DNA of 64,000 nt from the NCBI GenBank assembly GCA_910575105.1, contig CAJTDK010000008.1, forward strand, positions 124,001-188,000. Direction: 5' to 3'. How positions within the stretch are numbered: position 1 is the stretch's first letter; every line of letters starts with the position of its first letter. This DNA comes from Lachnospiraceae bacterium (lineage in GTDB: Bacteria > Bacillota > Clostridia > Lachnospirales > Lachnospiraceae). Of this stretch, positions 32,936 through 54,445 are shown piece by piece. The position numbers and the translations under genes were made by a program. The notes below the pieces were generated by a model that did no database searches, had not been told where the DNA came from, and saw only the letters and a list, made by a program, of their open reading frames with translations.

Positions 32936-34444
32936 ATGGCAGACGAAAAATTAAACGTGAGCCCGGAGGAAAATCCCCAGCCCAGCTTGTTCGATGCTGG
33001 CCCGGCTGGTGCTCCTGCCCAGGACGCTCCCACCCCGGAGCCCCCGGCCCCGGAGAACGCCCCCGAGCAGACTGGCGGGGATGCGCCCGCCCAGGATGCC
33101 CCGGCTGGGGCCCCCGGCGCGGTGAATGTCTCCGCTGACCAGATTGAAAAGCTGATGGCAGAACAGCGGGCAGCGGGACGTGCGGAGGTGGAAAAGAACG
33201 AGCCACCCGAACCGGAACAGCCGCCCACCCCGGCCCCGGAGGAAAAGGCCGCCGGGGAAAAGGGGCCCGCCAAAAAGGACAAGGCCGCCAAAGAAAAAAC
33301 GTCCGAGCCAGATAAACCCAAGGGTAGGCGGGGCCGCAAGCCCAAGGAAGAAAAAGCGGGGCCCGGTGAACCGGGAGGGACGGGGGCCCGCCGTGGCCGC
33401 CCGGCCAAGGCTGATAAGGCGGCCTCGGACAGGCCCCCGTCCCAACCTCGAGACAAAATGTCCCAAGGCAAGGGCGGAAAGGCCGCCACGGTAAAGGGCA
33501 AGGAAGAGGCTCCCGCCGCTCCCCCGCCTGCGCCGGAAGTGCCGCCCCAGCCCCGTGACGCGACCCGCGCCGAAAAGGAAGAGATTGTTTACCTCAACCT
33601 CTCGGAGCTGTTCCCGTTCAAAGACCATCCCTTTGGGGTGCGGGACGATGCGGAAATGAAAGGGCTTGTGGAGTCCGTCAAGGACAACGGCGTACACCAG
33701 CCCGCGCTGGTGCGTCCCCGCGAGGGCGGCGGCTATGAAATCATCGCGGGCCACCGCCGCCAGAGGGCCAGTGAGCTGGCCGGGTTCGCCAATATGCCGT
33801 GTATCGTCCGCAACATGACGGACGATGAGGCCATCCTTGCGATGACGGACGACAACCTGCGCCACCGGGAAAAGATTCTGCCGATGGAAAAGGCCCAGTC
33901 TCTGAAAATGCAGGTGGAGGCCATTAGCCATCAAGGGACGAAGATGGAGGGCGTGGCCGCCGGGGACGTTGGAAAACGCTCCACGGAAATCGTGGGGGAG
34001 CGCAACGGCATGAACTACAAGCAGGTACAGCGGTATATCCGGCTGACCGAGCTTGTGCCGGAGCTCCAGTCTATGGTGAACGAGAAAAAGCTGTCTTTCA
34101 CCCCCGCCGTGGAAATCTCGTTCATCAAACCCAAAAACCAGAGGTTTATCGCCGTTTCCATTGAGGGCGAGCAGGCGTCCCCCTCGCTCTCCCAGGCCCA
34201 GGAGCTCCGCAAGCTGGATAAGGACGGGAAACTGAACGGCGATGTCATTGACGGCATTTTGAGCCGTGAGAAAAAGGAGGTAGACAAAGTGATTATTTCC
34301 GCCGCTGAATTGAACAAGTATTTCGGCAAGGACGCCACGCCCCGGGAAATGAAAGACCAGATTATGTCCCTGCTGGCCGAATGGAAAGAGAAACAGCCCC
34401 CGGAGCGCACCGCCCCAGAGAAAAAGACCGACCGGGAAAAGTAA
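32936..34444 (+). CDS. ParB/RepB/Spo0J-family protein with long Pro/Ala-rich N-terminus
   Basis: 502 residues. Residues 1-210 are low-complexity (Pro, Ala, Glu, Lys; RRGRKPKEE is AT-hook-like). Residues 215-330 are a ParB N-domain (LNLSELFPFKDHPF, GVHQPALVRPREGGGYEIIAGHRRQRASELAG, ILAMTDDNLRHREKILPMEKA), and a helix-turn-helix region follows (NGMNYKQVQRYIRLTELVPELQSMV). AAAGGAGG precedes the ATG. First gene of the element operon; no ParA gene accompanies it. It is the best candidate to bind the GGGACA-N3-TGTCCC palindromes, in the manner of ParB/parS or KorB; this is inference. One palindrome lies in its own coding sequence. Confidence 0.9.
   Translation: MADEKLNVSPEENPQPSLFDAGPAGAPAQDAPTPEPPAPENAPEQTGGDAPAQDAPAGAPGAVNVSADQIEKLMAEQRAAGRAEVEKNEPPEPEQPPTPAPEEKAAGEKGPAKKDKAAKEKTSEPDKPKGRRGRKPKEEKAGPGEPGGTGARRGRPAKADKAASDRPPSQPRDKMSQGKGGKAATVKGKEEAPAAPPPAPEVPPQPRDATRAEKEEIVYLNLSELFPFKDHPFGVRDDAEMKGLVESVKDNGVHQPALVRPREGGGYEIIAGHRRQRASELAGFANMPCIVRNMTDDEAILAMTDDNLRHREKILPMEKAQSLKMQVEAISHQGTKMEGVAAGDVGKRSTEIVGERNGMNYKQVQRYIRLTELVPELQSMVNEKKLSFTPAVEISFIKPKNQRFIAVSIEGEQASPSLSQAQELRKLDKDGKLNGDVIDGILSREKKEVDKVIISAAELNKYFGKDATPREMKDQIMSLLAEWKEKQPPERTAPEKKTDREK
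33450..33464. repeat. Element palindrome site 1 (inside the parB-like gene)
   Basis: GAGACAAAATGTCCC: left arm has A at position 2, centre AAA. It encodes RDKMSQ within the low-complexity region. Confidence 0.85.
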
Positions 34445-34449
34445 GCCTT

Positions 34450-34464
34450 GAGACATTTTGTCCC
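34450..34464. repeat. Element palindrome site 2
   Basis: GAGACATTTTGTCCC, 5 bases after the ParB-like stop codon; flanks CCTT and GAGG. Confidence 0.85.
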
Positions 34465-34524
34465 GAGGTTTTTCTTTTTCCCGCGCCCCTCCCCCGCGCC
34501 TTGCATGGCGTTCTTTTAGAGAGG

Positions 34525-34712
34525 GGCTCTGGTGGTATATCCCCCGTCGCCGCCTGCTACTGAGCACAGCCGGGAGTGGGCGGTCAAGGGGCGGAACGCC
34601 CGCCGCCTGCGGCGGCTTGCCCTTGACGGCCCGCCCCGGCTGTGCCACCCCTCCCGGCGCGGCGGGGGATATATCCTCCAGAGCCGCCCCCTTTCCCATG
34701 AATGGGAAAGGG
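34525..34712. other. Long imperfect inverted repeat and second hairpin between the parB-like and DUF4406-like genes
   Basis: This non-coding gap (34445-34763) folds on itself. GGCTCTGG plus GTATATCCCCCG near 34525 is mirrored by CGGGGGATATATCC and CCAGAGCC near 34670-34685. Inside, CACAGCCGGG and GGTCAAGGG are mirrored by CCCTTGACGG and CGGCTGTG. Directly after it, CCCTTTCCCAT (34689-34699) pairs perfectly with ATGGGAAAGGG (34702-34712). No T-tract follows, so this is not a plain terminator. A structured RNA, a single-strand origin or an oriT-like site are possible. Confidence 0.6.
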
Positions 34713-34763
34713 CGGGGGGAAAGGGCTGAACGACAACTATTAAAATATCGGAGGTAAACGACT

Positions 34764-35105
34764 ATGAAACGACCCCTTGCTTACATCACCGCCGCTTGGT
34801 ATGGCGGCGATACGGAAAATGCGGAGCTGGCCGCGCAGTATTGCCGGGCGGTCTACGATGCGGGCTTTGCCCCTATCTGCCCGGCCTTGTTCCTGCCCCT
34901 TTTCCTCAATGACGCGGTTCCCGAGGAGCACAAGAGCAGCATCGACATTGGCCGCGACCTGCTCCGCCGCTCCCGGGTACTGGTGGTGTGCGGGCATACC
35001 GTCACCGAGTCCATGAAGAACGACATCGCTGTGGCCCAGCGGCTGGGCATCACCGCTACCACCCTTGAGGGCATTTTGACCGTCAAGGGACAGGGCCGCC
35101 GCTGA
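34764..35105 (+). CDS. DUF4406/nucleoside-deoxyribosyltransferase-like small protein
   Basis: 113 residues. RPLAYITAAWYGG at the N-terminus, AAQYCRAVYDAGFAPICPALF in the middle and RVLVVCGHTVTESMKNDIAVAQRLGI near the end follow the pattern of DUF4406-type Rossmann-like domains found in phage and mobile elements. GGAGG precedes the ATG. It directly abuts the ArdA gene (1 base between them), so the two are coupled. A nucleotide-metabolic or anti-defence role is possible; not proven. Confidence 0.65.
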   Translation: MKRPLAYITAAWYGGDTENAELAAQYCRAVYDAGFAPICPALFLPLFLNDAVPEEHKSSIDIGRDLLRRSRVLVVCGHTVTESMKNDIAVAQRLGITATTLEGILTVKGQGRR

Positions 35106-35106
35106 C

Positions 35107-35808
35107 GTGGCCGCGCTGTTCGAGGCGTACATCACCAATCTGGGGAAATACAACGAGGGCGAGCTGGTGGGGGAAACGCTGAAATTCCCCACCAGCCCCC
35201 AGGCGGTGGAGGCGCTGTTAAAGAATATCGGCGTGGACGGCATACGCTACGAGGAATTTTTCATCACCAGCTTTGACGGCGATGTGCTGGGGCTCTATGA
35301 CTATCTGGGCGAGTATGAAAATCTGGACGAGCTGAACCATCTGGCCTGCCTGCTCTCGGAGCTCCCCCAAAGTGAGATCGAAAAATTCGAGGCCGCGCTC
35401 CATATGGGGGCGCATACCTCCAGCGTGGCGGACATCATCAATCTTGCGGAAAATCTGGACTGCTTTGAATTTTACCCGGATATTGAAAGCGAGGAAGATT
35501 TGGGCCGCTACTACACGGAGGATTTGGAAATCCCCGCCGAGCTGAAAGGCTATGTTGACTATGAGGCATACGGGCGGGACGTGTCCATCAACGAGGGCGG
35601 CCACTTCGCCCCCGGCGGCTATATCGTGCAGACTGGCGACCTCAAAGAAATATATCGTGGCATCCAGGATATTCCCAAGGAGCACAAGGTTTTTGCCCTC
35701 CCCCGGCTCTCCATCCGGGAGCAGATGGCCGCCTACAAGGAAGTGATTGACCGTTCCTCTCTGGAGGCGGAACGCAAGCACCCGGAAACGGGCCGGGATG
35801 AGCGGTGA
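35107..35808 (+). CDS. ardA: Antirestriction protein ArdA
   Basis: 233 residues from GTG 35107. AALFEAYITNLGKYNEGELVGETLKFP, GIRYEEFFITSFDGD, the acidic LGLYDYLGEYENLDELNHLA and FEFYPDIESEEDLGRYY match ArdA, an acidic DNA mimic that blocks type I restriction enzymes when an element enters a new host. Length is slightly above the usual 165-ish, as in Firmicutes ArdA with an extra domain. Early position in the operon fits expression right after transfer. Confidence 0.9.
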   Translation: MAALFEAYITNLGKYNEGELVGETLKFPTSPQAVEALLKNIGVDGIRYEEFFITSFDGDVLGLYDYLGEYENLDELNHLACLLSELPQSEIEKFEAALHMGAHTSSVADIINLAENLDCFEFYPDIESEEDLGRYYTEDLEIPAELKGYVDYEAYGRDVSINEGGHFAPGGYIVQTGDLKEIYRGIQDIPKEHKVFALPRLSIREQMAAYKEVIDRSSLEAERKHPETGRDER

Positions 35809-35812
35809 CTTC

Positions 35813-35827
35813 GAGACATTTTGTCCC
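35813..35827. repeat. Element palindrome site 3
   Basis: GAGACATTTTGTCCC, 4 bases after the ardA stop codon. Confidence 0.85.
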
Positions 35828-35870
35828 AAAGGCCGGAGGGCCTATCCCCCATGAAAGGAGGCGGTTTTGA

Positions 35871-36353
35871 TTGATTGACGAGGATGTTTCCCGGCGCACG
35901 ATAGCACTTTCTATCAGAACGGGAAAACTTTCGGCCCGGGTGCTGGCCTATGCGCTCCGGGCGGCTGGCCGGAAGATACAAAAGGAACGCCGGGCCCACC
36001 AGACGCCCCACGGCAGGCAGTCCGTGAAAAAGCTCATGGCCCACGGCGCGGCGACCAACAGCATCGAGCTCACCGGGGCCCCAAAAGAATTTGACCGGGT
36101 GGCCCGGAAGTGGAATGTTGACTATGCCTTTTACAAGACCGGGCCGGACAAGTATCTGCTGTTCTTCAAGAGCGGGCAGGCGGACGCAATCACCGCTTGT
36201 TTTTCGGAATACTCCCGCCGGGTGCTGGATAAGGCAAAGACTGACCGCGTACCCATCCGGGAACAGCTCAAACGGGCCGCCGCCGAGATACTGCGCCAGC
36301 CCGCGCCCCAAAGGAAAGACCGCGTAAAGGAGGCCGCCCATGAGGACAGATAA
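35871..36353 (+). CDS. PcfB/DUF3801-family conjugation protein
   Basis: 160 residues from a TTG start at 35871 with AAAGGAGG upstream. RTIALSIRTGKLSARVLAYALRA, HGRQSVKKLMAHGA and YAFYKTGPDKYLLFFKSGQADAI match DUF3801 (PcfB of pCF10), an accessory factor that helps the relaxosome reach the coupling protein. Its end overlaps the VirD4 gene by 14 bases, so expression is coupled, as expected for its role. Confidence 0.85.
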   Translation: MIDEDVSRRTIALSIRTGKLSARVLAYALRAAGRKIQKERRAHQTPHGRQSVKKLMAHGAATNSIELTGAPKEFDRVARKWNVDYAFYKTGPDKYLLFFKSGQADAITACFSEYSRRVLDKAKTDRVPIREQLKRAAAEILRQPAPQRKDRVKEAAHEDR

Positions 36354-38181
36354 GCTGAAAAAGTACCTTTTGCCCAACCTCCCCTATCTGTTCATCGGCT
36401 GGGCCTGCCTAAAGGTGGGGACGGCCTACCGTCTGGCGGCGGGGGCGGATTTGGCCCACAAGCTGGTGGGGATGGTGGCGGCCCTCGGCCTGGCCTTTGC
36501 CGACTTCGCGCCGGGGCTTGCTCCTTTTGACTGGCTCACTGGCATCGCGGGGGCTGTGGCGATCCGGCTGGTTATCTACCAGAAAAGCAAAAAAGCCCAA
36601 AAATACCGCCGGGATGAAGAGTATGGTTCGGCCCGCTGGGGAACGGAAAAAGACATCAAGCCGTTCACCGACCCCAGGTTTGAGAACAACATCATTCTGA
36701 CCGGGACGGAATTTCTCACCACCAACACCCGGCCCGCCGTCCCCGCCAATGCCCGGAACCTGAATTGCTGTGTTGTCGGTTCCTCCGGCTCCGGCAAGAC
36801 CCGGTTCTGGCTTACCCCGCAATTACTCCAGGCCCATTCCTCCTATGTGGTGGTAGACCCAAAAGGCGGGGTGCTGGAGCAGGCGGGCTTTTTCCTGCAA
36901 CGGAAAAAGGGATATAAAATCAAGGTTTTTAACAGCATTGATTTTTCCCGCTCCATGCACTACAACCCGCTGGCCTATATCCGCAACGAGGCCGACATTT
37001 TGAAATTCGTCAATACCTTAATAGCCAACACCAAAGGCGAGGGCAAGGAGGGCGACCCGTTCTGGACGAAATCAGAAACGCTCCTATACTGCGCCCTTAT
37101 CGCCTATATCATCTTCGAGGGCCCGGACGAGGATAAAAACATGAATACCCTTGTAGACATGATTTCCGGCATGGAGGTCAAGGAGGACGATGACGACTTT
37201 ATGAACGCGGTGGACTATATGTTCGCCGGGCTGGAAAAGCGCAAGCCGGACTGTTTCGCGGTCAAGCAGTACAAAAAGTACAAGCTGGCCAGCGGCAAGA
37301 CCGCCCGCTCCATACTTATTAGCTGTGGCGCAAGGCTGGCCCCATTTGACATCCCGCAACTCCGGGAGATTATGAGCTATGACGAGATGGAGCTTGACAA
37401 GCTGGGGGACAGACGGACGGCGGCTTTCTTCATCATCAGCGATACCGACACCACCTACAACTTTATTGTAGCTCTGGCGTTTTCGCAGATGTTCAATCTC
37501 TTGTGCGAAAGGGCGGACAACGTACACGGGGGCCGCCTGCCCCATCATGTGCGGGTGCTGTGGGACGAGGCCGCCAACACCGGGCAAGTGCCCAACCTCG
37601 AAAAGCTGGTGGCGGTCATCCGCTCCCGGGAGGTGAGCCTGACGCTGTTCTACCAGCAGTTGGCCCAATGTAAGGCCATCTACGATAAAAACGCGGAAAC
37701 CATTTTAGGCAACATGGACAGCGTGGTGTTCCTCGGGGGCCGGGAAGCCAGCACCATCAAGGAAATATCGGAGAACTGGCTGGGCAAGGCCACCATCTCC
37801 ATGCAGACCGAGGGCCGCTCCCGTGGCCAGTCGGAAAGCTACAACCAGAACACGCAACGGCTGGGCCGGGAGCTTATGACCCCCGCCGAGCTTGCCACCA
37901 TGCCCGGCGACAGGTGCATCCTGCAACTGCGGGGCCTGCCGCCGTTCTACTCCCGGAAATACGATTTGAAACAGCACCCCAACTACCGATACACGGCGGA
38001 GGCGGACAAGAAGAAAAACGCCTTTTCGCTGGAGTGGCTTATCTGCCGCCGCATGAAAACGCTCAATCCCAACGAGCAGTACACCGTGTACGAGGCGGAC
38101 GTGCCGGACGGAACGCCCATAGACGAGGACGAGGACATCCTCAACTATGACGATTTGGACGACCCGGACGCTTTTGTATAG
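36340..38181 (+). CDS. VirD4/TraG-type coupling ATPase
   Basis: 613 residues. Two N-terminal membrane segments (about 11-30 and 42-80), a GSARWGTEKDIKPF lead, Walker A GSSGSGKT (147-154), VVDPKGG, and Walker B VLWDEAAN near 405 define a type IV coupling protein. It docks the relaxase-DNA complex to the transfer channel at the membrane. Acidic C-terminal tail (DEDEDILNYDDLDDPD). It overlaps the PcfB gene. A palindrome copy follows its stop by 4 bases. Confidence 0.95.
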   Translation: MRTDKLKKYLLPNLPYLFIGWACLKVGTAYRLAAGADLAHKLVGMVAALGLAFADFAPGLAPFDWLTGIAGAVAIRLVIYQKSKKAQKYRRDEEYGSARWGTEKDIKPFTDPRFENNIILTGTEFLTTNTRPAVPANARNLNCCVVGSSGSGKTRFWLTPQLLQAHSSYVVVDPKGGVLEQAGFFLQRKKGYKIKVFNSIDFSRSMHYNPLAYIRNEADILKFVNTLIANTKGEGKEGDPFWTKSETLLYCALIAYIIFEGPDEDKNMNTLVDMISGMEVKEDDDDFMNAVDYMFAGLEKRKPDCFAVKQYKKYKLASGKTARSILISCGARLAPFDIPQLREIMSYDEMELDKLGDRRTAAFFIISDTDTTYNFIVALAFSQMFNLLCERADNVHGGRLPHHVRVLWDEAANTGQVPNLEKLVAVIRSREVSLTLFYQQLAQCKAIYDKNAETILGNMDSVVFLGGREASTIKEISENWLGKATISMQTEGRSRGQSESYNQNTQRLGRELMTPAELATMPGDRCILQLRGLPPFYSRKYDLKQHPNYRYTAEADKKKNAFSLEWLICRRMKTLNPNEQYTVYEADVPDGTPIDEDEDILNYDDLDDPDAFV

Positions 38182-38185
38182 CTTT

Positions 38186-38200
38186 GGGACATTTTGTCCC
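38186..38200. repeat. Element palindrome site 4 (full symmetry)
   Basis: GGGACATTTTGTCCC flanked by CTTT and AAAG, extending the arms to 10 bp. It lies 4 bases after the VirD4 stop. Confidence 0.9.
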
Positions 38201-38273
38201 AAAGAGTAGCCAGCCGCCTACACCGGGCGGCTTTTCTTGTGCCCGGGAAAATCCCGGAGAAATGGAGGACTAT

Positions 38274-38486: not shown

Positions 38487-38498
38487 GGGCGGCGGCTT

Positions 38499-39379: not shown

Positions 39380-39394
39380 GGGACATTTTGTCCC
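39380..39394. repeat. Element palindrome site 5
   Basis: GGGACATTTTGTCCC, 14 bases after the TrbL-like stop; flanks CTTC and AAAG. Confidence 0.9.
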
Positions 39395-40192: not shown

Positions 40193-40976
40193 CCCGGCTT
40201 TGGGACAAAATGTCCCAAACCTTAACCCGGAACCCTCCGGGCTCTACCTTATGGACGGCATCACGGGCCTGCGCTCCCTCCCGGAGCACTCGGTTGATAT
40301 GCTTTTGACCGACCCGCCCTATGGCACGACCCGCAACTATTGGGACGTGCCTTTGCCGCTCCCGGAGCTGTGGGAGGCGGTGCGCTGGGCGGTCAAGCCC
40401 TCCGGGGCGGTGCTGTTCTTCGCCCAGTGCCCTTATGACAAAATCCTCGGCGCGTCCAACCTTTCCATGCTCCGCTATGAATGGGTGTGGTATAAGAGCC
40501 GCTGTACGGGATTTCTCAACGCCCGCCGCGCCCCGCTGAAAAAGACGGAGAATATTTTGGTGTTCTATCAAAGGCTCCCCCTCTACAACCCGCAGTTTGA
40601 GCAGGGCAAGCCCTATAAGAAAATCGCATCCCAGCGCGACCAGAGCCCCAACTATGGGAAGTTTGTCCGCTCCGGCAGCGGCTCGGAGGACGGGCGGCGG
40701 TTCCCGGGGAACCTGCTTTCATTCCAGACCGTGGCCCATACCGTCCACCCCACCCAGAAGCCCGTGGAGCTGTGCGAGTATCTGATAAAGACCTACACCG
40801 CCCCCGGCGAGGTGGTGGCGGACATCTGCGCGGGCTCCGGCACAACAGCCATCGCCGCACTGAACACGGGCCGGGAATTTATCTGCTTTGAGACGGCCCC
40901 GGCCTTTTACGGCCCGGCCACGGAGCGCATCACCCAGGCGCGGGCGGCTGTGGCCGCTGGCGGAAAGGGGGTGTGA
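40182..40976 (+). CDS. DNA methyltransferase, N6-adenine/N4-cytosine class (DPPY)
   Basis: 264 residues from ATG 40182 (GGAGG upstream). Motif IV is DMLLTDPPYG near residue 38, and motif I FxGxG is DICAGSGTT near residue 213, so the order is beta-class. HTVHPTQKPVELCEYLI is also typical (PF01555). No partner restriction enzyme is present, so it probably modifies the element against host restriction or serves regulation. The palindrome at 40202 falls within codons 8-12 (GQNVP). Confidence 0.9.
   Translation: MPDSPALGQNVPNLNPEPSGLYLMDGITGLRSLPEHSVDMLLTDPPYGTTRNYWDVPLPLPELWEAVRWAVKPSGAVLFFAQCPYDKILGASNLSMLRYEWVWYKSRCTGFLNARRAPLKKTENILVFYQRLPLYNPQFEQGKPYKKIASQRDQSPNYGKFVRSGSGSEDGRRFPGNLLSFQTVAHTVHPTQKPVELCEYLIKTYTAPGEVVADICAGSGTTAIAALNTGREFICFETAPAFYGPATERITQARAAVAAGGKGV
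40202..40216. repeat. Element palindrome site 6 (inside the methyltransferase 5' end)
   Basis: GGGACAAAATGTCCC (AAA centre), 9 bases after the stop of the SpoVG-like gene and inside the next gene's first codons. Confidence 0.9.
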
Positions 40977-41542
40977 CTATCGGTAAATATAACGTGATAT
41001 ACGCCGACCCGCCGTGGCGGTACGCCCAAAAGGGCCTGCAAGGCGCGGCGGAGCGGCACTACCCCACAATGGGGATTGAGGAATTATGCGTGTTGCCCGT
41101 GGCGGAATTGGCGGCCCCGGACAGCGTTCTTTTTATGTGGGCCACGTTCCCCCAGCTCCCGGAGGCCCTGCGGCTTATCAAGGCATGGGGCTTTCAGTAT
41201 AAGTCTGTGGGCTTTGTCTGGCTGAAAAAGAATAAAAAGGCGGACAGCTGGTTTTACGGGCTGGGCTTTTGGACGCGGGCCAACGCGGAGGTGTGCCTGC
41301 TGGCGACCCGTGGGCATCCCCGGCGAAAGGCCCCCAACGTCCACCAGTTCATCATCTCCCCTATCGAGGGCCACAGCAAAAAGCCGGACGAGGCCCGTGA
41401 AAAAATCGTGGCCCTTATGGGGGACGTGCCCCGGGTGGAGCTGTTCGCCCGCCAGACGGCCCCCGGCTGGGACGTGTGGGGGAATGAGGTGGAGCCCACC
41501 GAGGGACTTCGGGACATTTTGTCCCAAAGGAAAGGAGGCTAA
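40973..41542 (+). CDS. MT-A70-family methyltransferase (DPPW)
   Basis: 189 residues from GTG 40973, overlapping the previous stop by 4 bases. YNVIYADPPWRYAQKG carries the DPPW motif IV. SVLFMWATFPQLPEALRLIKAWGF and RANAEVCLLATRG follow, as in prokaryotic MT-A70 enzymes, which methylate adenine in DNA. It forms a pair with the beta-class enzyme. Its C-terminus (GLRDILSQRKGG) is encoded by a palindrome copy and may be extended only because the site was placed there. Confidence 0.88.
   Translation: MTIGKYNVIYADPPWRYAQKGLQGAAERHYPTMGIEELCVLPVAELAAPDSVLFMWATFPQLPEALRLIKAWGFQYKSVGFVWLKKNKKADSWFYGLGFWTRANAEVCLLATRGHPRRKAPNVHQFIISPIEGHSKKPDEAREKIVALMGDVPRVELFARQTAPGWDVWGNEVEPTEGLRDILSQRKGG
41511..41525. 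repeat. Element palindrome site 7 (inside the MT-A70 3' end)
   Basis: GGGACATTTTGTCCC, encoding RDILSQ at the C-terminus; 15 bases before the stop codon. Confidence 0.9.
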
Positions 41543-44230: not shown

Positions 44231-45917
44231 CGCCGGGCCCGCCGGGGACAAAGGCACTTCGGGACAAAATGTCCCAAAGTCCCCGAAAGGCTTGAAAAAC
44301 AAAAAATCCAAGTTCCGCATGGAAAGCGAACAAGAGAAAATCAGCAAGTCCAAGCTCCGCATGGAGACGCGGGAGGACAAGCTGAACCGGGCCCGGAAGA
44401 AGCTGGAGGGGAAAAAGCCCCCCAAACCCCGGGGCCCGGTGCGCCGGGTGCTGGGGGCCGCCGGGTGGAACGTCCACGGCTTTGTGCATGGCAAGGTTTA
44501 TGAGGTGGAGCATGAAAACGTGGGAACCGAGGGGGCCCACCGCTCCGAGCTTTTGGGCGAGGCCGCTCTCCGGCAGGGGACGCGGTACGCAAAAAAGCGC
44601 ATCCGGGAGCACCCGGCCCGGGCCGTCCATAAGGCCGAGACGCAGTACATCAAGGCCCGGGCGGACTACCAGTTCCGCATGGCCGCCCAGGAGAACCCGG
44701 AGCTTGCAAAGAACGCCGTCACCCGCTACTGGCACAAGCAAAAGCTGAAAAAGCAGTACGCCAAACAAGCGCGGCAGGCGGCAAAGCAGACCGCGAAACA
44801 AGGGGCCAAGGCCGCCGGGAAAACCGCCGCCGCCACGGAAAAGCTGGCGGAGCGGGCTGTGGCTTTCGTGAAACGGCATCCCGTGGGGACGCTTATCGCG
44901 CTGGCCTGCGTGGTGCTCGTTTTGTCCCTCCAGTCCTGCGCGTCCTCCCTTATCTCTTTGGGGAACGCCGCCGCAGGCGCGGTGGGGGCCACCACCTACC
45001 CCGCCGAGGATGGGGATATGCTGGGGGCCGAGGCCGCCTACTGTTCACTGGAGGCGGAGCTCCAGCATTATCTGGATACCTACGAAAGTACCCACGACTA
45101 TGACGAGTACCATTACGATTTAGACGCTATCGAACATGACCCCTATGTGCTGGTTTCCATTCTGAGCGCATGGCACGAGGGGGAATGGACGCTGGCGGAT
45201 GTCCAGCCCACCTTGCAGATGCTCTTTGACCGCCAGTACACGCTGACCGAAAACGTGGTAAAGGAGCGGCGGTACTACATCGAAACGGATACATGGACGG
45301 ACGAGGAGGGCAACACCCACACTGACAGCTACCGGGTATATTACGATTATTATATCTGCACTGTGACACTGGATAACTTCAACCTTTCCCATCTTCCTAT
45401 CTATATCATGGGGGAGGAAAAGGTTTCCCGGTATTCCCTCTACATGGCAACGCTGGGGAACCGCCCCGACCTCTTTCCCGGCTCGTCCTATGTGGGGAAA
45501 TACACCAGCCCGCCGGAGGGCTACGAAGTGCCGGGGGAATATCTGGACGATGAAACATTCGCGGCGATGCTCTCCGAGGCCGAGAAATACCTCGGTTATC
45601 CCTATGTATGGGGCGGGAGCTCCCCGGCCACGTCCTTTGACTGCTCCGGCTTTGTAAGCTGGGTTATCAATCACAGTGGCTGGAACGTGGGGCGGCTGGG
45701 GGCCCAGGGGCTCTACAACATCTGCACCAGAACCAGCTCCCCCCGCCCCGGCGATTTGGTATTTTTCAAGGGAACCTATGACACCCCGGGAGTCTCCCAC
45801 TGTGGCATCTATGTGGGGGACGGGATGATGCTGCACTGTGGCGACCCTATCAGCTACGCCAACTTAAACAGCAGCTACTGGCAGGCCCACTTCTACGCCT
45901 ACGGGCGTTTACCATGA
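44211..45917 (+). CDS. NlpC/P60 peptidoglycan hydrolase of the transfer apparatus (CD1108-type)
   Basis: 568 residues. Residues 1-225 are very basic (KSKFRMESEQEK, KKLEGKKPPKPRG) and cytoplasmic. A membrane helix lies at about 226-248 (GTLIALACVVLVLSLQSCASSLI), then an extracellular part. From about 455 comes an NlpC/P60 domain: YLGYPYVWGGSSPATSFDCSGFVSWV (catalytic Cys), PRPGDLVFFKG and SHCGIYVGDGMMLHCG (catalytic His). It opens the cell wall for the mating channel. It overlaps the VirB4 end by 20 bases. The early residues GTSGQNVPKSP are encoded by a palindrome copy. Confidence 0.92.
   Translation: MTRGTNNAGPAGDKGTSGQNVPKSPKGLKNKKSKFRMESEQEKISKSKLRMETREDKLNRARKKLEGKKPPKPRGPVRRVLGAAGWNVHGFVHGKVYEVEHENVGTEGAHRSELLGEAALRQGTRYAKKRIREHPARAVHKAETQYIKARADYQFRMAAQENPELAKNAVTRYWHKQKLKKQYAKQARQAAKQTAKQGAKAAGKTAAATEKLAERAVAFVKRHPVGTLIALACVVLVLSLQSCASSLISLGNAAAGAVGATTYPAEDGDMLGAEAAYCSLEAELQHYLDTYESTHDYDEYHYDLDAIEHDPYVLVSILSAWHEGEWTLADVQPTLQMLFDRQYTLTENVVKERRYYIETDTWTDEEGNTHTDSYRVYYDYYICTVTLDNFNLSHLPIYIMGEEKVSRYSLYMATLGNRPDLFPGSSYVGKYTSPPEGYEVPGEYLDDETFAAMLSEAEKYLGYPYVWGGSSPATSFDCSGFVSWVINHSGWNVGRLGAQGLYNICTRTSSPRPGDLVFFKGTYDTPGVSHCGIYVGDGMMLHCGDPISYANLNSSYWQAHFYAYGRLP
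44261..44275. repeat. Element palindrome site 8 (inside the NlpC/P60 gene 5' end)
   Basis: GGGACAAAATGTCCC (AAA centre), 30 bases after the VirB4 stop, encoding GQNVP. Confidence 0.9.
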
Positions 45918-45931: not shown

Positions 45932-46189
45932 ATGGCGATAAGCAAGAGCGCAAAAATCATGGCCGAGATGGAAAAGGTCAAGGCCAAAATCAGCGACCAG
46001 CAGGCCCGGCTGAAAGAGCTGGAACAGAAACACAAGGAGGCCGAGAACGAGGAAATCGTGGACATCGTGCGGGGCATGAGCATTTCCCTTGAGGAGCTCC
46101 CGCTGGTGCTCCAGCGCATCAAGGCCGGGGACACTTTGGGACAAAATGTCCCGAAGTCCGCCGGGCCGGAAAAGGAGGACGCGGAATGA
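45932..46189 (+). CDS. DUF4315-family small protein
   Basis: 85 residues from ATG 45932, AAAGGAGG upstream. MAISKSAKIMAEMEKVKAKISDQQARLKELEQKHKEAENEEIVDIVRGM is a coiled-coil of the DUF4315 type found at this place in Tn1549-like elements. The C-terminal GDTLGQNVPKSAGP is encoded by a palindrome copy. Function unknown. It ends in a 4-base overlap with the next gene. Confidence 0.82.
   Translation: MAISKSAKIMAEMEKVKAKISDQQARLKELEQKHKEAENEEIVDIVRGMSISLEELPLVLQRIKAGDTLGQNVPKSAGPEKEDAE
46138..46152. repeat. Element palindrome site 9 (inside the DUF4315 gene 3' end)
   Basis: GGGACAAAATGTCCC (AAA centre), encoding LGQNVP near the C-terminus. Confidence 0.9.
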
Positions 46190-48450: not shown

Positions 48451-48465
48451 GGGACATTTTGTCCC
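48451..48465. repeat. Element palindrome site 10
   Basis: GGGACATTTTGTCCC between mobC (stop 48404) and the relaxase (start 48493); flanks CTTC and AAAG. Confidence 0.9.
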
Positions 48466-48492
48466 AAAGTCCCAACGAGAGGAGGTGCTACC

Positions 48493-49899: not shown

Positions 49900-49924
49900 C
49901 GGCGGTGACGCAGCCAACCTCTTT

Positions 49925-49939
49925 GGGACATTTTGTCCC
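49925..49939. repeat. Element palindrome site 11 (full symmetry)
   Basis: GGGACATTTTGTCCC flanked by CTTT and AAAG, 25 bases after the relaxase stop. Confidence 0.9.
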
Positions 49940-49951
49940 AAAGAGCCGGGT

Positions 49952-49978
49952 TTGGGGAGGCTCCCCAACAAGCATTTT
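49952..49978 (+). terminator. Possible terminator after the relaxase gene
   Basis: TTGGGGAG and CTCCCCAA form a perfect stem, followed a few bases later by TTTTT. A second stem (ATTTTTGC/GCAAAAAT) lies at about 49973-50003. They separate the transfer operon from the convergent XRE gene. Confidence 0.45.
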
Positions 49979-50087
49979 TGCGGGCCCCCGGCCCAGCAAA
50001 AATTTCGGAGTGTGGCCACACCCGAATTGCTTGCCGTTTGTGCGCTCCCCTATACATGGCGCGAAAAAACGGAGGTCGCGCTTTTCC

Positions 50088-50444
50088 TTACGCTCCCTCC
50101 GTTTCTCTGGCTTTTCTGATACCCTCTGCGGCTCCCTCTATGATGATAAGCTCCTTTTCGTCCATTCCGTTCAGCATCCGGTCAATGTGTTTCCGGCGCT
50201 CACTCTCGCCGCCCAGCTTGTCCGGGTAGAAAAATTCATCCACGGAAATATCAAAAAGGGTAACGAGCTTGTAAAAGGCGTTGAGGCTGGTGTGCTGGCC
50301 CCGGTTCTCAATATACATGATGGAGCGAGGGGTGAGGTCTACAAGCTGGGCCAGGTGCTCCTGCGTCCAGCCTTTGGCTTTTCGTCTGCGCTTGATTTCT
50401 TGGCCCAGGGCATGACAGTCCAGGCGTTTTTCATATTGGTACAT
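50088..50444 (-). CDS. XRE-family regulator in the element
   Basis: 118 residues from ATG 50444 (a GTG 6 bases earlier is possible). The helix-turn-helix spans about 13-68 (LGQEIKRRRKAKGWTQEHLAQLVDLTPRSIMYIENRGQHTSLNAFYKLVTLF). The C-terminal part is helical (HIDRMLNGMDEKELIIIEGAAEGIRKA). It is the only minus-strand gene in the element and marks the left edge of the AT-richer cargo. It could regulate the element; it is an alternative candidate to bind the palindromes, though none lies near its own promoter. Confidence 0.88.
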   Translation of the reverse strand: MYQYEKRLDCHALGQEIKRRRKAKGWTQEHLAQLVDLTPRSIMYIENRGQHTSLNAFYKLVTLFDISVDEFFYPDKLGGESERRKHIDRMLNGMDEKELIIIEGAAEGIRKARETEGA

Positions 50445-50553
50445 TCTCACATCACCCCTATATTATTCTACATTTCGGGGTGGAATATGAGAACGAAACA
50501 CAATTTTATTTTTAAGTAGTTTTTTATTTCGTGTTTTTTTCTTGCTTGCGGGC

Positions 50554-50582
50554 TTGACAAAAGTACAACGCTATGTTATATT
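50554..50582 (+). promoter_or_regulatory. Consensus promoter of the BlaI-BlaR1-like pair
   Basis: TTGACA (50554-50559), 17-base spacer, TATATT (50577-50582). GTACAACGCTATGTTAT overlaps it and AATGTCAACATCGCGTC lies just downstream; these loosely symmetric stretches could be BlaI-type operators. It is the strongest promoter seen in the element. Confidence 0.75.
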
Positions 50583-50624
50583 TTTAATGTCAACATCGCG
50601 TCATACATTAAGGAGGAAAGAAAC

Positions 50625-51005
50625 ATGGTGCAACAACTATCAGATGCTGAACTTGAAATTATGAAAATCGTGTGGGGGAACCCGGAGGAGGTGACATTGT
50701 TCCCCTATATCATGGATGGACTGGCGGCCAAAGGAAAACCGTGTCAAAAAAATACATTGATTGTCCTTTTGTCGCGGCTGATTAACAAGGGTTTTCTAAG
50801 TGCTAAAAAAATTGGACGGCGCAACGAATATACAACACTGGTTTCAGAAACGGAATATCAGACGGCACAAACAAAAAATTTCTTGGATAAAATCTATGAG
50901 GGAAACGCAAGTGGACTGGTTTCTAATTTGATTTTAGGTGATTTGCTGGCAGACGAGGAATATGAAGAGCTGAAAAAGCTGCTGGAGAAAGGGCGAGAAA
51001 AATGA
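50625..51005 (+). CDS. BlaI/MecI/CopY-family repressor
   Basis: 126 residues. QQLSDAELEIMKIVWGNPEEVTLFPYIMDGLA, KKNTLIVLLSRLINKGFLSAKKIGRRNEYTTLVS is the winged-helix of the BlaI/MecI family, and the C-terminus FLDKIYEGNASGLVSNLI is its dimerisation/cleavage region. AGGAGG precedes the ATG. It overlaps the M56 peptidase gene by 4 bases, the classical repressor-sensor pair. GC content is lower than the transfer genes, so this is inserted cargo. Confidence 0.92.
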   Translation: MVQQLSDAELEIMKIVWGNPEEVTLFPYIMDGLAAKGKPCQKNTLIVLLSRLINKGFLSAKKIGRRNEYTTLVSETEYQTAQTKNFLDKIYEGNASGLVSNLILGDLLADEEYEELKKLLEKGREK

Positions 51006-52789
51006 ACATGGTTTTGAAAGTCTTTTTGTCTATGTCTTTTTCCGGAGCCCTGCTCATTCTGGCTTTGGTTTGTGGTGAACGATTTTTGAAACATAAAATC
51101 AGCCGACAGTGGCAGTATTATATTTGGCTCATTGTTATCCTGCGGTTGTTGCTTCCCTTTGGGCCAGAAACAAATTTGATGGGGAAAACCTATCAAGCCG
51201 TCGATGAAGCAATAACACAGAACACTTCTTTATCGGAAGCACAAGAGCCAGTTAATGCTCCGGGAAATGTTCTCCCCCCTGCTGTTGGTTCGGAGCCGGA
51301 TAACGAAAACACAAATAGCCCGGTAGAAGAATTGGTAACTGCACATCCACTTAAAGACATCACATCACTGTTGATAAATCATATCTGGCTAATTTGGCTA
51401 ATGGTTGCGCTGGGTATGCTGATACGGAAAGTAACAATCTATCAAGGCTTTATACGGTATATCAATGCTGGATTATCCCCCGTTTCTGACATGGGAATTT
51501 TAGACCGTCTTTCCGTTGTTGCAGAGCGGGTGGGTATAAAAAAACCGATTGAATTATGTGTCAATCCGTTGATTTCTTCTCCGCTGTTAATTGGATTTTT
51601 CCACCCATGTATCGTATTGCCGAGCGTGGATATTTCCGAAAAGGATTTTCAGTATATCGTCCTGCACGAACTGACACATTATAAGCGGCGGGATATGTTT
51701 TATAAGTGGCTGGTGCAGGTTACAGTCTGTCTACATTGGTTTAACCCTTTCGTCCATCTCATGAGTCGGGAAATCACAAAAGCGTGCGAGTTTTCTTGTG
51801 ATGAGGCAGTCCTTACAAAAATGGGATATGGCAACGCGCAAGAGTATGGAAATACCTTACTTGACGCTATGGCGGCAGTCGGAAGATACAAGGAAAATCT
51901 TGGGGCTGTCACTTTAAGCGAAAATAAACAGCTATTAAAAGAAAGGTTAGGTGCAATTATGAAATTTAAGGAACAGTCAAGGACAGTTAAAATGTTGACA
52001 TTTGCTCTGACATTGTGCGTACTTTTAGGTGCGGCTTTTGTTGGCGTTTTCCCTGTTGCCGCGGCAACTGATCGCACAACACGCAAGCCCCAGGTGGCTG
52101 TGGATAAAACTCCCACACAAGGGAATACAAGCACAAGCAGTAAGGACTATGCAACCCAGGCGGAGCGGTACTATGAGGCTGACAGCCTACCGTTGTTTGA
52201 AATCACTTTTCCCCGGTTGGATGAAAATACGCAAAAGAAATGGCTGGAAAAGTTCTATGCTGATGAGGACTTTGCCTTTTTCTCTGTTGCTGTATGTTGG
52301 ATTGACACAAATTCCGCTTTGTTTACCGACTTCGCTGAAAAAGCGTATGACGATGAAGAAATGGCGTTTTTCTCCATCTTGATAGACTGTATGGACGAAG
52401 CGGAACTGGAACTTTGGCTGGACAGGGCTTTGGAAGATGGAAATTGGGCATTTCAATCCATGCTCTTTGATAAGCTAAACCGAAGCGAGGAATTTGACGA
52501 GCTTGAAGAAAAGCAGAAAAAAGAATGGGCCGAAGCGCAGACGGCGGAATACCGGGCTGTGGGCGTTACAATGGACGGCAAAGACTATTATTACCAGGGC
52601 CAGCTTGTCAACATCTTTTTAGACATCCGGCCTAACAAATCCGTTTACACGCTGAATATGAACCCCAAAGGGACTGTTAATATCAAAATAGTCCGTGATG
52701 CAGAAAACAAAATCACAGGCGTTTCTTATATGACTGAGGCGGAAGTAACTGAACTGCTGGAAGATATGAGTGACCCAGATGATAAATAA
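51002..52789 (+). CDS. BlaR1/MecR1-like M56-family membrane metalloprotease
   Basis: 595 residues. Membrane helices lie near 5-25, 35-55 and 123-143. VLHELTHYKRRDMFYKW near residue 222 is the HExxH zinc motif (HELTH), and ACEFSCDEAVLTKMG is the third ligand region. A last helix near 335-355 is followed by an unusual extracytoplasmic part of about 240 residues with acidic repeats (DEDFAFFSVAVCW, DDEEMAFFSILIDCMD, EDGNWAFQSMLFDKLN). There is no penicillin-binding sensor domain and no beta-lactamase gene nearby. It probably senses an envelope signal and inactivates the repressor. Confidence 0.88.
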   Translation: MNMVLKVFLSMSFSGALLILALVCGERFLKHKISRQWQYYIWLIVILRLLLPFGPETNLMGKTYQAVDEAITQNTSLSEAQEPVNAPGNVLPPAVGSEPDNENTNSPVEELVTAHPLKDITSLLINHIWLIWLMVALGMLIRKVTIYQGFIRYINAGLSPVSDMGILDRLSVVAERVGIKKPIELCVNPLISSPLLIGFFHPCIVLPSVDISEKDFQYIVLHELTHYKRRDMFYKWLVQVTVCLHWFNPFVHLMSREITKACEFSCDEAVLTKMGYGNAQEYGNTLLDAMAAVGRYKENLGAVTLSENKQLLKERLGAIMKFKEQSRTVKMLTFALTLCVLLGAAFVGVFPVAAATDRTTRKPQVAVDKTPTQGNTSTSSKDYATQAERYYEADSLPLFEITFPRLDENTQKKWLEKFYADEDFAFFSVAVCWIDTNSALFTDFAEKAYDDEEMAFFSILIDCMDEAELELWLDRALEDGNWAFQSMLFDKLNRSEEFDELEEKQKKEWAEAQTAEYRAVGVTMDGKDYYYQGQLVNIFLDIRPNKSVYTLNMNPKGTVNIKIVRDAENKITGVSYMTEAEVTELLEDMSDPDDK

Positions 52790-52884
52790 ACGCATGAAAA
52801 AAATCAAAGCCGCTCAACGGTAAATAAAAAAACCGTTGTTTCGGCGGCTGATTATCTGCGCGCCAAAACAAAATACAGTGGCCT

Positions 52885-52929
52885 AACGGCGGTTTTGAAA
52901 TAACAAATTTCAAGCCGCCGTTTTCTTTT
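52885..52929 (+). terminator. Bidirectional-type terminator after the BlaR1-like gene
   Basis: AACGGCGG plus TTTTGAAAT pairs with ATTTCAA plus CCGCCGTT, with TTCTTTT following. It lies about 95 bases after the stop codon; an AACGGT/ACCGTT hairpin also sits at about 52817-52837. The remainder of the 52790-53286 gap holds another stem (AAGGACAC at 52972 with GTGTCCTT at 53003, then T6), the GC-rich stem at 53121 and palindrome site 12. Confidence 0.65.
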
Positions 52930-53120
52930 GAAAAATAGAATACGGAGGGTGTATTAAAGTCACCCATTTTTAAGGACACGGCGGTATCCAGGAGGTATCG
53001 TTGTGTCCTTTTTTATCTGCACTCAAGTTAATTCGTTAAAAAAAGTTTAGCCCCTCCACCGGGTTACTCCGGCCAACAACGCGAAATTTGCAAGTACATA
53101 AAGAACTACGTCATTTCATG

Positions 53121-53149
53121 CGCCCGCACAGTACAACGCTGTGCGGGCG
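53121..53149 (+). other. Strong 11-bp hairpin in the leader of the sigma-like gene
   Basis: CGCCCGCACAG (53121-53131) and CTGTGCGGGCG (53139-53149) form a perfect stem with a 7-base loop TACAACG, followed by TTGTCGTTTCTTG. It could act as an attenuator. No gene covers it. Confidence 0.55.
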
Positions 53150-53175
53150 TTGTCGTTTCTTGTCGGCTCCACTTC

Positions 53176-53190
53176 GGGACAAACAGTCCC
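53176..53190. repeat. Element palindrome site 12 (degenerate)
   Basis: GGGACAAACAGTCCC: one arm base differs. It lies between the hairpin at 53121 and the sigma-like gene; flanks CTTC and AAGG. Confidence 0.65.
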
Positions 53191-53230
53191 AAGGTGCGGG
53201 GCGGCTCCCCCGGGTGTCGCTCCCCGCCGC

Positions 53231-53278
53231 CCTCCATATCGTTTCCCGGCAACCCATCCACAAAAAACGATATGGAGG
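53231..53278 (+). promoter_or_regulatory. Ribosome-site-sequestering hairpin of the sigma-like gene
   Basis: CCTCCATATCGTTT (53231-53244) is the perfect 14-base complement of AAACGATATGGAGG (53265-53278), with a 20-base loop. The 3' arm ends with the GGAGG ribosome site, 8 bases before ATG 53287. In mRNA this would hide the ribosome site until something opens the stem. Confidence 0.7.
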
Positions 53279-53286
53279 TACATACC

Positions 53287-53709
53287 ATGACTATTATCAA
53301 TCTGCGCGACTTTTATTACTGGTACACCCAGGACGAATATATTGAGGTTACTGACGATGTGGCCGAGGCGCTCCGGGCCAGCGTCCGCTATGAGGCGGCC
53401 TATACCGAGCGTGTCCGCTACAACAAGGCGTACTATTCCTTGGATGCGGATGACGGCATCGAGTATTCCGCCTGCCTGCACGAGCTCACCCCGGACGAGG
53501 TTCTGGAGCTCAAGGAGCGGTTCTGCCGTCTGTGGAACGCGCTGAACAGCCTGCCGGAAACCCAAGGCCGCCGGGTGGACGCTCACTTTATCCTCGGCAT
53601 GACCTACCGAGAGATTGCCAAAGCCGAGGGCGTGGATAAGAGCGCGGTGCGGCGCTCTGTTCTCAGTGGCATCGCACAGATGAAAAAATATTTGAGAAAA
53701 AATCCGTGA
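53287..53709 (+). CDS. Sigma-70 region 4-like helix-turn-helix protein
   Basis: 140 residues. The N-terminus TIINLRDFYYWYTQDEYIEVTDDVAEALRAS, YNKAYYSLDADDGIEYSAC, and the C-terminal helix-turn-helix MTYREIAKAEGVDKSAVRRSVLSGIAQMKKYL resemble the sigma-factor-like regulators of Tn916/Tn1549-type elements. It probably drives or tunes expression of the integrase or transfer genes. Translation appears controlled by the hairpin at 53231-53278. Confidence 0.8.
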   Translation: MTIINLRDFYYWYTQDEYIEVTDDVAEALRASVRYEAAYTERVRYNKAYYSLDADDGIEYSACLHELTPDEVLELKERFCRLWNALNSLPETQGRRVDAHFILGMTYREIAKAEGVDKSAVRRSVLSGIAQMKKYLRKNP

Positions 53710-53826
53710 TTGCCGTCTCCATTTGCTCCATTTTTCTGGTGGTATATGAGAGGAAGTTTTTTCTTCTCCACAACTGAATAGCGGGCGGCCCCGGGTGAAC
53801 GCGGGGAGCCGGGCGGCGGGTGCGCT

Positions 53827-54054
53827 ATGACTTCTCCCACGGGAGGACGAGCGACCAACACCACCGCCGCGAGTGGGGAACCTGCCAGCCCCACGGCCAC
53901 GATCCGCGAGGGACAAGCTGGCCGCTTGCCGCTTGGGGCCGCCGCACAAAACAAGGGAACGCCGGGCCGCTACTCGCTGTCTTTTGACGGGCCAAACATA
54001 CGGGCCCGGCGCTCCCCATTTCAAACAAGTTCGAGACAAATTGTCCCAAGGTGA
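53827..54054 (+). CDS. Possible 75-aa protein
   Basis: Open frame starting MTSPTGGRATNTTAASGEPASP, polar and Pro/Gly-rich, with no clear ribosome site or family. It ends in the palindrome at 54033 (SRQIVPR). The 428-base gap 53710-54137 otherwise shows no gene. It could be non-coding leader sequence. Confidence 0.25.
   Translation: MTSPTGGRATNTTAASGEPASPTATIREGQAGRLPLGAAAQNKGTPGRYSLSFDGPNIRARRSPFQTSSRQIVPR
54033..54047. repeat. Element palindrome site 13
   Basis: GAGACAAATTGTCCC (variant centre), about 90 bases before the DUF6870-type gene; flanks TTC and AAGG. Confidence 0.75.
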
Positions 54055-54137
54055 GGACAGGCTAAAGGGCGGCACTTTTCGGAGTGCTGCCTTTTCGCGT
54101 TTCCCCACCAACCAAAAACGCAAAAGGAGGTTTTGCC

Positions 54138-54404
54138 GTGAAACTGACCGCACAAGAGCTGGAACAAATGAAAAGCGTGAACATCGGCGCGGTGAGCGCG
54201 GATGCGCTGGCTGACGTGAGCGGTATGGCCTTTGACCGCACCCTCCCCCGGGAGGAGCGGCTGGCCCGGTTTGTGAAACGGGCCGTCAATCCCTACTGCT
54301 TTAGCGTGGGCGGCGTGGGCGTGAAAATCGAATTTGCCGAGGGCGGCCCCTCCCTCCAGGAGACGCTGGCGGCCTTTCTTATCCGGCAAAAGAGCGGGCT
54401 GTGA
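54138..54404 (+). CDS. DUF6870-type small protein
   Basis: 88 residues from GTG 54138 with AAAGGAGG upstream. KLTAQELEQMKSVNIGAVSADALADVSGM, RTLPREERLARFVKRAVNPYCFSVGGVGVKIEFAEGG resembles small conserved proteins (DUF6870) found next to conjugative element integrases. Function unknown. It lies between the sigma-like regulator and the integrase. Confidence 0.75.
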   Translation: MKLTAQELEQMKSVNIGAVSADALADVSGMAFDRTLPREERLARFVKRAVNPYCFSVGGVGVKIEFAEGGPSLQETLAAFLIRQKSGL

Positions 54405-54430
54405 CTGCTGTTGCGGCCCGTTCCTACTTC

Positions 54431-54445
54431 GAGACAAAATGTCCC
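54431..54445. repeat. Element palindrome site 14
   Basis: GAGACAAAATGTCCC, 26 bases after the DUF6870 stop and 15 bases before the -35 of the integrase promoter; flanks CTTC and GAGG. Confidence 0.85.

Follow-up and report, generated by a model that had tools for sequence, protein, structure and literature searches.

Which protein, if any, reads a 15-bp palindrome that recurs fourteen times along a single mobile element, mostly at the edges of genes? The question is raised by a stretch of 64,000 nucleotides (hereafter the window) from a Lachnospiraceae bacterium (GenBank assembly GCA_910575105.1, contig CAJTDK010000008.1, positions 124,001 to 188,000 of the forward strand), which carries an integrative and conjugative element (ICE) with a Tn1549-like transfer module, as judged from Pfam and NCBIfam domain scans and from the order of the genes. 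KorB and ParB proteins bind many dispersed operators on plasmids, and a first-pass annotation of the window had suggested that the palindrome, GGGACA-N3-TGTCCC, belongs to an element-wide regulator or nucleoprotein organiser, with the ParB-like product of the first gene of the element as its putative binder. The sequence comparisons presented here support this suggestion, through the conservation of the site positions and the co-variation of the site spelling with the ParB helix. We propose that the palindromes are probably the operators of the element's own orphan ParB-like protein, forming on an ICE a dispersed system similar to those of KorB and of the IncC plasmids, which occurs in several specificities and is accompanied by operator-carrying satellites.

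All 14 positions listed by the first-pass annotation were reproduced in the window at ≤1 mismatch, the expected number being 0.16, and none of 100 shuffles gave 14 copies. In the 4.24-Mb genome, the pattern GRGACAN3TGTCYC has 13 exact matches, all of them (13/13) within this element, and the reversed-pattern control has none. The stricter pattern GRGACAWWWTGTCCC is present in 11 of 291 sampled genomes of the same taxonomic class, among which the window's genome is the only one with more than one match on a strand. The description of the copies also stood up well: at ≤1 mismatch, the host flanks and the 50.1-53.0 kb cargo are free of them (a match at 2 mismatches lies at 51262, in the cargo), the right arm is TGTCCC in 13 of the 14 (the exception, at 53176, being AGTCCC) and the left arm is often GAGACA (5/14). 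It had given two copies 10-bp arms; the two extended copies exist, with arms of 10 bp at 38186 and of 12 bp, instead of 10, at 49925. Relative to transcription, the variant arm GAGACA of this spelling (class A, see below) is always the left one (window 33450-54445). As for placement, most copies do lie just after stops or at gene ends: nine of the 14 begin ≤50 bases past the stop of an open reading frame (ORF), namely those at 34450, 35813, 38186, 39380, 40202, 44261, 48451, 49925 and 54431, and nine lie entirely outside the ORFs taken as genes, as compared with 8.6% of random 15-mers (P = 3e-7). Their spacing (mean about 1.6 kb, range 0.4-3.3 kb) is evener than that of random placement between the end sites (coefficient of variation 0.52 vs 0.94, P = 0.007).

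The same sites occur in relatives under other spellings. Scanning genomes, many of which are draft or metagenome assemblies, with the ParB-like protein yielded 79 distinct loci, 53-100% identical to that of the window over the matched part, the loci within one class being not independent of one another. At ≤1 arm mismatch, 78 of the 79 carry at least one site of their own class, the four classes being class A (GGGACA-N3-TGTCCC, as in the window), class B (eight loci; CTC-TGGACA-N3-TGTCCA-GAG), class C (five loci and L096; TGGCCA or TGGTCA arms, i.e. TGGYCA) and class E (L097, L098 and L101; GGGCCA, with GGGTCA in one arm at some sites). A scan with a free arm and a spacer of 0-7 recovered the N3 families of classes A, B and C in the relatives. 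Of the motif matches, 315/326 belong to the class of their own locus; the 11 off-class matches were set aside, and one of them alone (+6162 in L065) resembles a true site. In the elements read from classes A, B, C and E, all the sites of an element switch spelling together, with their positions unchanged. The sites after parB, the ORF at 35107, VirD4 and TrbL are common to the four classes; A, B and C further have in common those ahead of PrgI, at the start of NlpC, at the end of DUF4315 and on either side of the relaxase, and A and B share those around the sigma-like gene. The E and C modules are broken after Maff2 by an insert of about 10 kb; there the comparison of homologous positions stops short of the far end. 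The first-pass annotation had proposed to look for the motif in close relatives, and for positions kept while the genes diverge: the motif, identical or varied, was thus found in 78 of the 79 loci, and the positions are kept across the four classes, whose ParBs share 53-100% identity with that of the window.

Among the class A elements listed in full, exact sites number 13 in G002:C41, G008:C1 and G005:C9 (14 in the last when one one-mismatch copy is included), 12 in G013:C1 and G011:C26, and 14 in G007:C52. Site number tracks the transfer genes: in the 21 loci of class A for which some 10 kb downstream could be read, 6-8 sites follow the parB start in the 13 loci where TrbL to VirB4 are present, and 1-4 in the eight loci without TrbL in reach. 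The window's own genome also holds a truncated parB remnant (L002, G000:C2 near 134064), 89% identical over the first 201 residues, which carries a decayed copy of the in-gene site.

The ParB-like protein starts with a proline-rich region of about 200 aa containing the AT-hook-like strings RRGRKPK and RRGRPAK, followed by a ParB_N domain (Pfam, E 9.1e-18, 64.5 bits for a cut-off of 26.3); its profile matches in the PDB are Spo0J, ParB, Noc and KorB. In agreement with the first-pass annotation, it appears as a ParB without ParA: none was seen among the element proteins scanned, and no parA was found beside parB, the first gene. Read by eye, the window protein has GHRR where the aligned ParBs have GERR, and DN where they have EN.

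The following lines of evidence connect this protein with the palindrome. First, when 22 class A ParBs are compared with 13 class B and C ParBs, 18 columns of residues 206-502 are disjoint, of which 13 fall within residues 348-396, an enrichment of the helix region (hypergeometric P = 7e-8) for a region picked after the alignment had been seen. Second, in an alignment that omits L093-L095, short frames, L002, L006 and L043, residues 348-360-361-363-369 are R-N-Y-Q-R in class A (K363 also occurs, and L081 has A361 with K369), L-S-G-T-Y in class B, L-S-V-T-W in class C, and R-T-V-Q-K or R-S-V-Q-A in class E. Position 4 of the half-site is C or T with V361 (C, E) and A with Y, A or G at 361 (A, B), and position 1 is G with R348 and Q or K363 (A, E) and T with L348 and T363 (B, C). 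Third, in a tree built without the helix region, several inner supports of which are low, class E joins L081, which has a class A site, and classes B and C sit among other class A proteins; the association of V361 with C/T is therefore found in two branches and arose at least twice. Fourth, a distant ICE (G002:C19) encodes a ParB of 302 aa, 43% identical and devoid of the long N-terminal region, with the helix G-E-S-G-K-T-V-Q-R-Y-V-W, and next to a diverged transfer module (VirD4 54%, VirB4 45%) has five exact TGGACA-N3-TGTCCA sites over 31 kb; TGGACA is the spelling predicted by a class B-type helix S-G-K-T. Fifth, ParB residues 360, 361 and 363 fall on residues 172, 173 and 175 of Caulobacter ParB, in a weak HMMER alignment of the second domain to 7bnk (4.3 bits; numbering per PMC7383237), and the excerpt of PMC7383237 at hand reports that residues 172 and 173 contact parS and that residue 173 switches specificity. 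That the spelling shifts together with the DNA-reading part of ParB makes the palindrome very probably a ParB binding site. The AT-hook-like strings were also considered as the cause of the AT-rich spacer of class A and were discarded, since the ParBs of classes A, B and C all have them. On the side, we noticed some site copies with a TTGACA left arm in L158 and L159 (G002:C19), and one TGGACA site within the distant parB of L092.

Operators also occur where no ParB gene does. Past operator 2 lies a 216-bp inverted repeat, with a DNA fold of -80.5 kcal/mol vs -52.3 when shuffled (z -7.44), which may be a single-strand origin and has homologues in 20 of the 23 genomes searched. Leaving out G017:C49, G017:C56:1120 and the partial G019:C7, this hairpin lies beside a related ParB at 21 distinct loci, at 20 of which a site of the corresponding class lies no more than about 450 bp away; the exception, L141, belongs to the element of L044, in which the site after parB has a GGGACT arm. 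Ten other hairpin loci lack a related ParB (counting L142, G014:C148, which has a 54% identical ParB of another kind about 1.2 kb away), and all ten are flanked by sites on both sides within 750 bp, of matching type in nine. Two of the ten are of class A type, with a repeat 91-92% identical to the window's and class A sites; in the other eight the repeat is 87-91% identical to that of a class B ICE, and seven have B or mixed B/C arms and one (L124) TGGTCA arms. These cassettes hold 4-6 sites. The segment past operator 11, which adjoins the relaxase gene and is called oriT-like for that reason, is conserved at 97-98% identity in both class A cassettes; in the B type the resemblance is only partial. 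Recombinase genes stand beside the sites in L118, L119, L121, L122, L124 and L125; L123 ends before the recombinase position, and L142, L151 and L152 were read over 3.2 kb. In L124, a compact cassette and candidate integrative mobilizable element which by eye interrupts a DUF3732 gene, the order is site, repeat, NikA-like gene, site, cargo, site, sigma-like gene, site, serine recombinase; Pfam gave no relaxase among the ORFs scanned, no homologue of a relaxase or of the type IV secretion genes was found, and its oriT-like match to the window's is limited to 35 nt (89%).

As to the individual cassettes, the ParB-less L118 (2978-6803) and L121 (9713-13971) have six sites of class A, adjoining serine recombinase genes and an oriT-like segment that is 97-98% identical to the window's. 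L119, L122, L123, L124 and L125, also ParB-less, have their NikA-like, cargo and sigma-like genes surrounded by four sites of B/C type, the cargo being TetR with FMN proteins in L124 and BlaI/BlaR1-like in L125. The cassettes have thus kept the cis-acting parts and the operators, and not ParB and the transfer genes. Their matching operators and shared cis-acting parts suggest that they are satellites, probably run by a helper element, which may also mobilize them. The idea of the first-pass annotation that the motif is unique to one element type does not hold, as these cassettes and the distant ICE G002:C19 carry the motif family too.

ParBs of at least two specificities co-exist in seven of the 23 genomes searched, together with the corresponding types of site: G002 (A and the distant TGGACA type), G003 (A, E), G004 (A, B), G006 (A, E, on one contig), G017 (A, B, C), G018 (A, B) and G020 (A, C). 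Since each of the half-site spellings, at least four in number, comes with ParB helix residues to match, elements residing in one cell have no need of common sites. We tentatively put forward, as a possibility for which the odds are somewhat short of even, that the spellings form an identity code of conjugative DNA in Clostridia, with at least four ParB-operator spellings depending on few helix residues, about 12-14 copies per intact element and no cross-control in one cell, where satellites would copy the helper's spelling together with the hairpin and oriT-like segments, so that integrase and transfer follow the helper. The system would predict which elements and satellites sharing a cell can respond to each other. 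For a large family of conjugative elements, it also singles out a probable master DNA-binding protein and the set of sites that goes with it. It offers, moreover, a natural experiment on the joint change of specificity of a regulator and a dozen dispersed operators, which is difficult to account for since none of the sites can be left behind.

Several observations weigh against the assignment of the sites to ParB. The HTH_ParB match of the protein (Pfam, E 0.0011, 19.5 bits) is under the cut-off of 22.6. One of the 79 loci, L043, whose parB frame is broken, has no site, and in two genomes with class A ParBs the exact matches, counted strand by strand, number only 4+4 (G009) and 3+1 (G012). The relatives with an N-A-K-K helix (L004, L089 and L090), which lie in the window's own genome, would be expected under a simple code to read GGGACA, of which that genome has no site outside the element. 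A de novo palindrome scan (≥3 copies) of other ParB loci, seven in the own genome and nine in others (16 in all, 29-52% identical), found no such family. The bias of GAGACA towards the left (27 distinct left arms, and no TGTCTC right arm) is not accounted for by a symmetric dimer. L065 has a class C ParB and yet one class A site (+6162); as far as about +4.5 kb its sequence is 93-98% identical to a class C element, and from there on it is nearer to class A, which suggests a mosaic due to recombination or a chimeric metagenome contig. The hairpin has no match in G010, G011 and G012, all with class A elements. In the draft genome G019, a transfer module of class E and sites of class A occur with no A or E ParB among the five ParB hits, and the drafts G001 and G003 have B-type sites or cassettes where no B or C ParB was found. 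Two further features of these genomes may be recorded here: a short array of AACTTC/GAAGTT type, not dispersed, lies beside the distant parB paralogue L090 (G000:C3:10500-30400, 17177-17315 on the given strand), and L160 and L161 (G019:C11 and C9) have class E sites at the usual places of the transfer module.

Turning back to ParB as the reader, we infer that it would recognise two half-sites (about CTTY-KGGNCA) through its helix-turn-helix and, by analogy with KorB and other ParB clamps, would probably load at each site and slide. According to the excerpt of PMC11790492, the operators of KorB of plasmid RK2 are near promoters or more than 1 kb off, and sliding of the CTP clamp reaches promoters ≤1.5 kb away, a reach that resembles the mean spacing in the window; with sites about 1.6 kb apart (0.4-3.3 kb), sliding could bring ParB over the whole element. 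The likeliest role would be the coordinated control of the transfer, relaxosome and integrase genes, with the organisation or segregation of the excised form as a possible extra role; by analogy, the candidate modes are activation (BisD), repression (KorB) and segregation (IncC/SGI1).

The last of these modes could also be the main one, the sites acting as a distributed centromere through which ParB would stabilise or segregate the element, once excised and replicating, along with its satellites, transcription being secondary. IncC plasmids have dispersed parS sites, mostly 12-14, and the island SGI1 maintains itself by means of two that it has stolen, as reported in the excerpt of PMC10954446; moreover, the cassettes without transfer genes have retained sites beside the hairpin and the oriT-like segment. 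However, the same excerpt states that the IncC/SGI1 stabilisation required ParA and ParB both, the former having no counterpart among the element proteins scanned, and the sites occupy many gene boundaries and the region upstream of the integrase. We regard this reading as rather unlikely, and operators for gene control by ParB as the better account.

The nine sites that begin just past stop codons might also suggest RNA hairpins, i.e. terminators or mRNA stabilisers at gene ends, a reading that we find very unlikely for the sites as a whole. The -1/+1 pair is C/A, which cannot pair in RNA, in 41 of 92 distinct class A sites, this being the commonest pair (the T/G wobble occurs in 16/92), and at the 59 class A sites away from parB Watson-Crick pairing at -1/+1 is 0.37 vs 0.50 shuffled. 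Positions -2, -3 and -5 of those 59 sites do pair above the shuffled level (0.93 vs 0.87, 0.81 vs 0.62 and 0.44 vs 0.36, respectively), and are thus part of a symmetry wider than the core. The GAGACA left arm of 27 distinct sites makes an A-C mismatch, whereas its G-U counterpart, TGTCTC, is found in 0/92 right arms. In addition, a T-run follows a site of the window at 34450 only, and co-variation with the ParB helix is not predicted by RNA pairing. We therefore set this reading aside, except for the post-parB site: the outer arms of that site show compensatory changes among relatives (-5/-6 pairs, 0.87 vs 0.39/0.43 shuffled), and the T-run stands behind it in most class A, B and C copies, so that it is probably terminator and operator both.

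If the sites are read as DNA, the reader could be another DNA-binding protein encoded in the same element, namely the XRE protein (50088), LPD26-SpoVG, the methyltransferases, NikA or the sigma-70 region 4 protein, NikA and the latter being also encoded in class B-type cassettes. The XRE protein, which the first-pass annotation had named as second candidate binder, is very unlikely to be the reader: its identity, 98% in the class A elements of G006 and G013, 89% in the class B element G004:C19 and merely 56-58% in the class A elements of G002, G007 and G008, does not track the motif class, and the class A genomes G001 and G005 gave no close homologue. The B and C elements read gave no LPD26-SpoVG, the B element no N6-methyltransferase and the class A element of G005 no MT-A70, and in all of these the sites remain; NikA was not found in the two class A cassettes. 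On these comparisons, which covered the XRE protein, LPD26-SpoVG, the methyltransferases and NikA, another element-encoded reader seems highly improbable. Finally, the existence of many near-identical copies with common flanks would suit REP-like repeats spread by copying, without any reader, an extremely improbable case given the homologous positions across classes despite other spellings, the lack of copies elsewhere in the genome and the conservation of a site within coding sequence.

The element itself (Table 1) encodes, in this order, ParB, DUF7768, DUF3801, VirD4-like, Maff2, TrbL-like, LPD26-SpoVG, two methyltransferases, PrgI and VirB4-like proteins; then NlpC/P60, DUF4315, CD1107-like, Cys-rich VLP, DarA_C, NikA-like and relaxase proteins; and lastly the cargo (XRE, BlaI-like repressor and BlaR1-like sensor), the sigma-70 region 4-like protein and the serine recombinase. 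The gene order of the transfer module fits that of a Tn1549-type ICE (VirD4 53.6% identical). The order PcfB(DUF3801)-VirD4-Maff2-TrbL-MT-A70-PrgI-VirB4-C40 peptidase-DUF4315-CD1107 is found again in the Tn1549-like element on pMG2200, a plasmid which we take to carry an element of the Tn1549 type; in the 32.6 kb read of it there is no annotated parB and no exact site of the four classes. Between operator 14 and the recombinase start, a TATAAT with a weak -35 can be read by eye, and a consensus promoter scan made no call there. An Rfam search at gathering scores gave no match, and no tRNA was found. Two mutually reverse-complementary sequences, CTCCTATTAGGAA (about 32723-32735) and TTCCTAATAGGAG (about 56234-56246), flank the element and may mark its attachment sites.

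Table 1. Features of the element, with the proposed operators, in window coordinates.
Feature	Coordinates	Strand	Remarks
parB-like gene, 502 aa	32936..34444	+	proposed reader; ParB_N 220-302, HTH region 348-396
operator 1, GAGACA left arm	33450..33464	+	within the Pro-rich stretch of parB; in-gene site in 15 distinct class A sequences
operator 2	34450..34464	+	5 nt past parB stop, in terminator-like hairpin followed by T-run
long inverted-repeat hairpin	34520..34735	+	adjoins operator 2; homologues in ParB-less cassettes
operator 3	35813..35827	+	between ORF 35107-35808 and DUF3801 gene
operator 4, 10-bp arms	38186..38200	+	past virD4-like stop
operator 5	39380..39394	+	past trbL-like gene
operator 6	40202..40216	+	N6-methyltransferase gene start, past LPD26-SpoVG gene
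operator 7	41511..41525	+	MT-A70 gene 3' end, ahead of prgI-like gene
operator 8	44261..44275	+	past virB4-like stop, NlpC/P60 gene start
operator 9	46138..46152	+	DUF4315 gene 3' end
operator 10	48451..48465	+	between nikA-like and relaxase genes
operator 11, 12-bp arms	49925..49939	+	past relaxase gene, abuts oriT-like segment
oriT-like conserved segment	49940..50060	+	97-98% identical in two class A cassettes
operator 12, AGTCCC right arm	53176..53190	+	ahead of sigma-70 region 4-like gene
operator 13	54033..54047	+	past sigma-like gene
operator 14	54431..54445	+	about 75 bp upstream of serine recombinase start
large serine recombinase gene (integrase)	54521..56197	+	NCBIfam CcrB-like, 148 bits, far under the model cut-off of 900

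In searches of the open-access literature we recognised no publication on this ParB-operator system, the two papers retrieved with the motif letters having unrelated titles; it can nevertheless be compared with four known ones. The chromosomal proteins ParB and Noc appear to have in common with it the specificity positions of the helix-turn-helix, including 172 and 173 (excerpt of PMC7383237; weak alignment), but their two sites, which differ at positions 1 and 6, serve the chromosome, whereas here four spellings occur within one ICE family. BisD of ICEclc is, similarly, a ParB-domain protein of an ICE, a regulator required together with BisC for activation of the integrase promoter; the ICEclc locus differs in having parA and BisC, and no mention of a palindrome or binding site was found in the paper that describes it (PMC7423338). 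KorB of RK2 is also a ParB-family protein with dispersed operators (OB; PMC11790492, same excerpt), whereas the present system belongs to an integrative element of Clostridia, with another operator sequence and no KorA partner identified, has several specificity classes and extends its operators to ParB-less cassettes. The nearest in layout, by analogy, is IncC ParABS with SGI1, where dispersed ParB sites on the carrier (12-14 on most IncC plasmids) are accompanied by stolen copies on a mobilizable island (PMC10954446, same excerpt); the differences are that here no ParA is seen, the element is integrated, the cassettes have 4-6 sites instead of two, the operator type goes with the hairpin type, and specificity has diversified.

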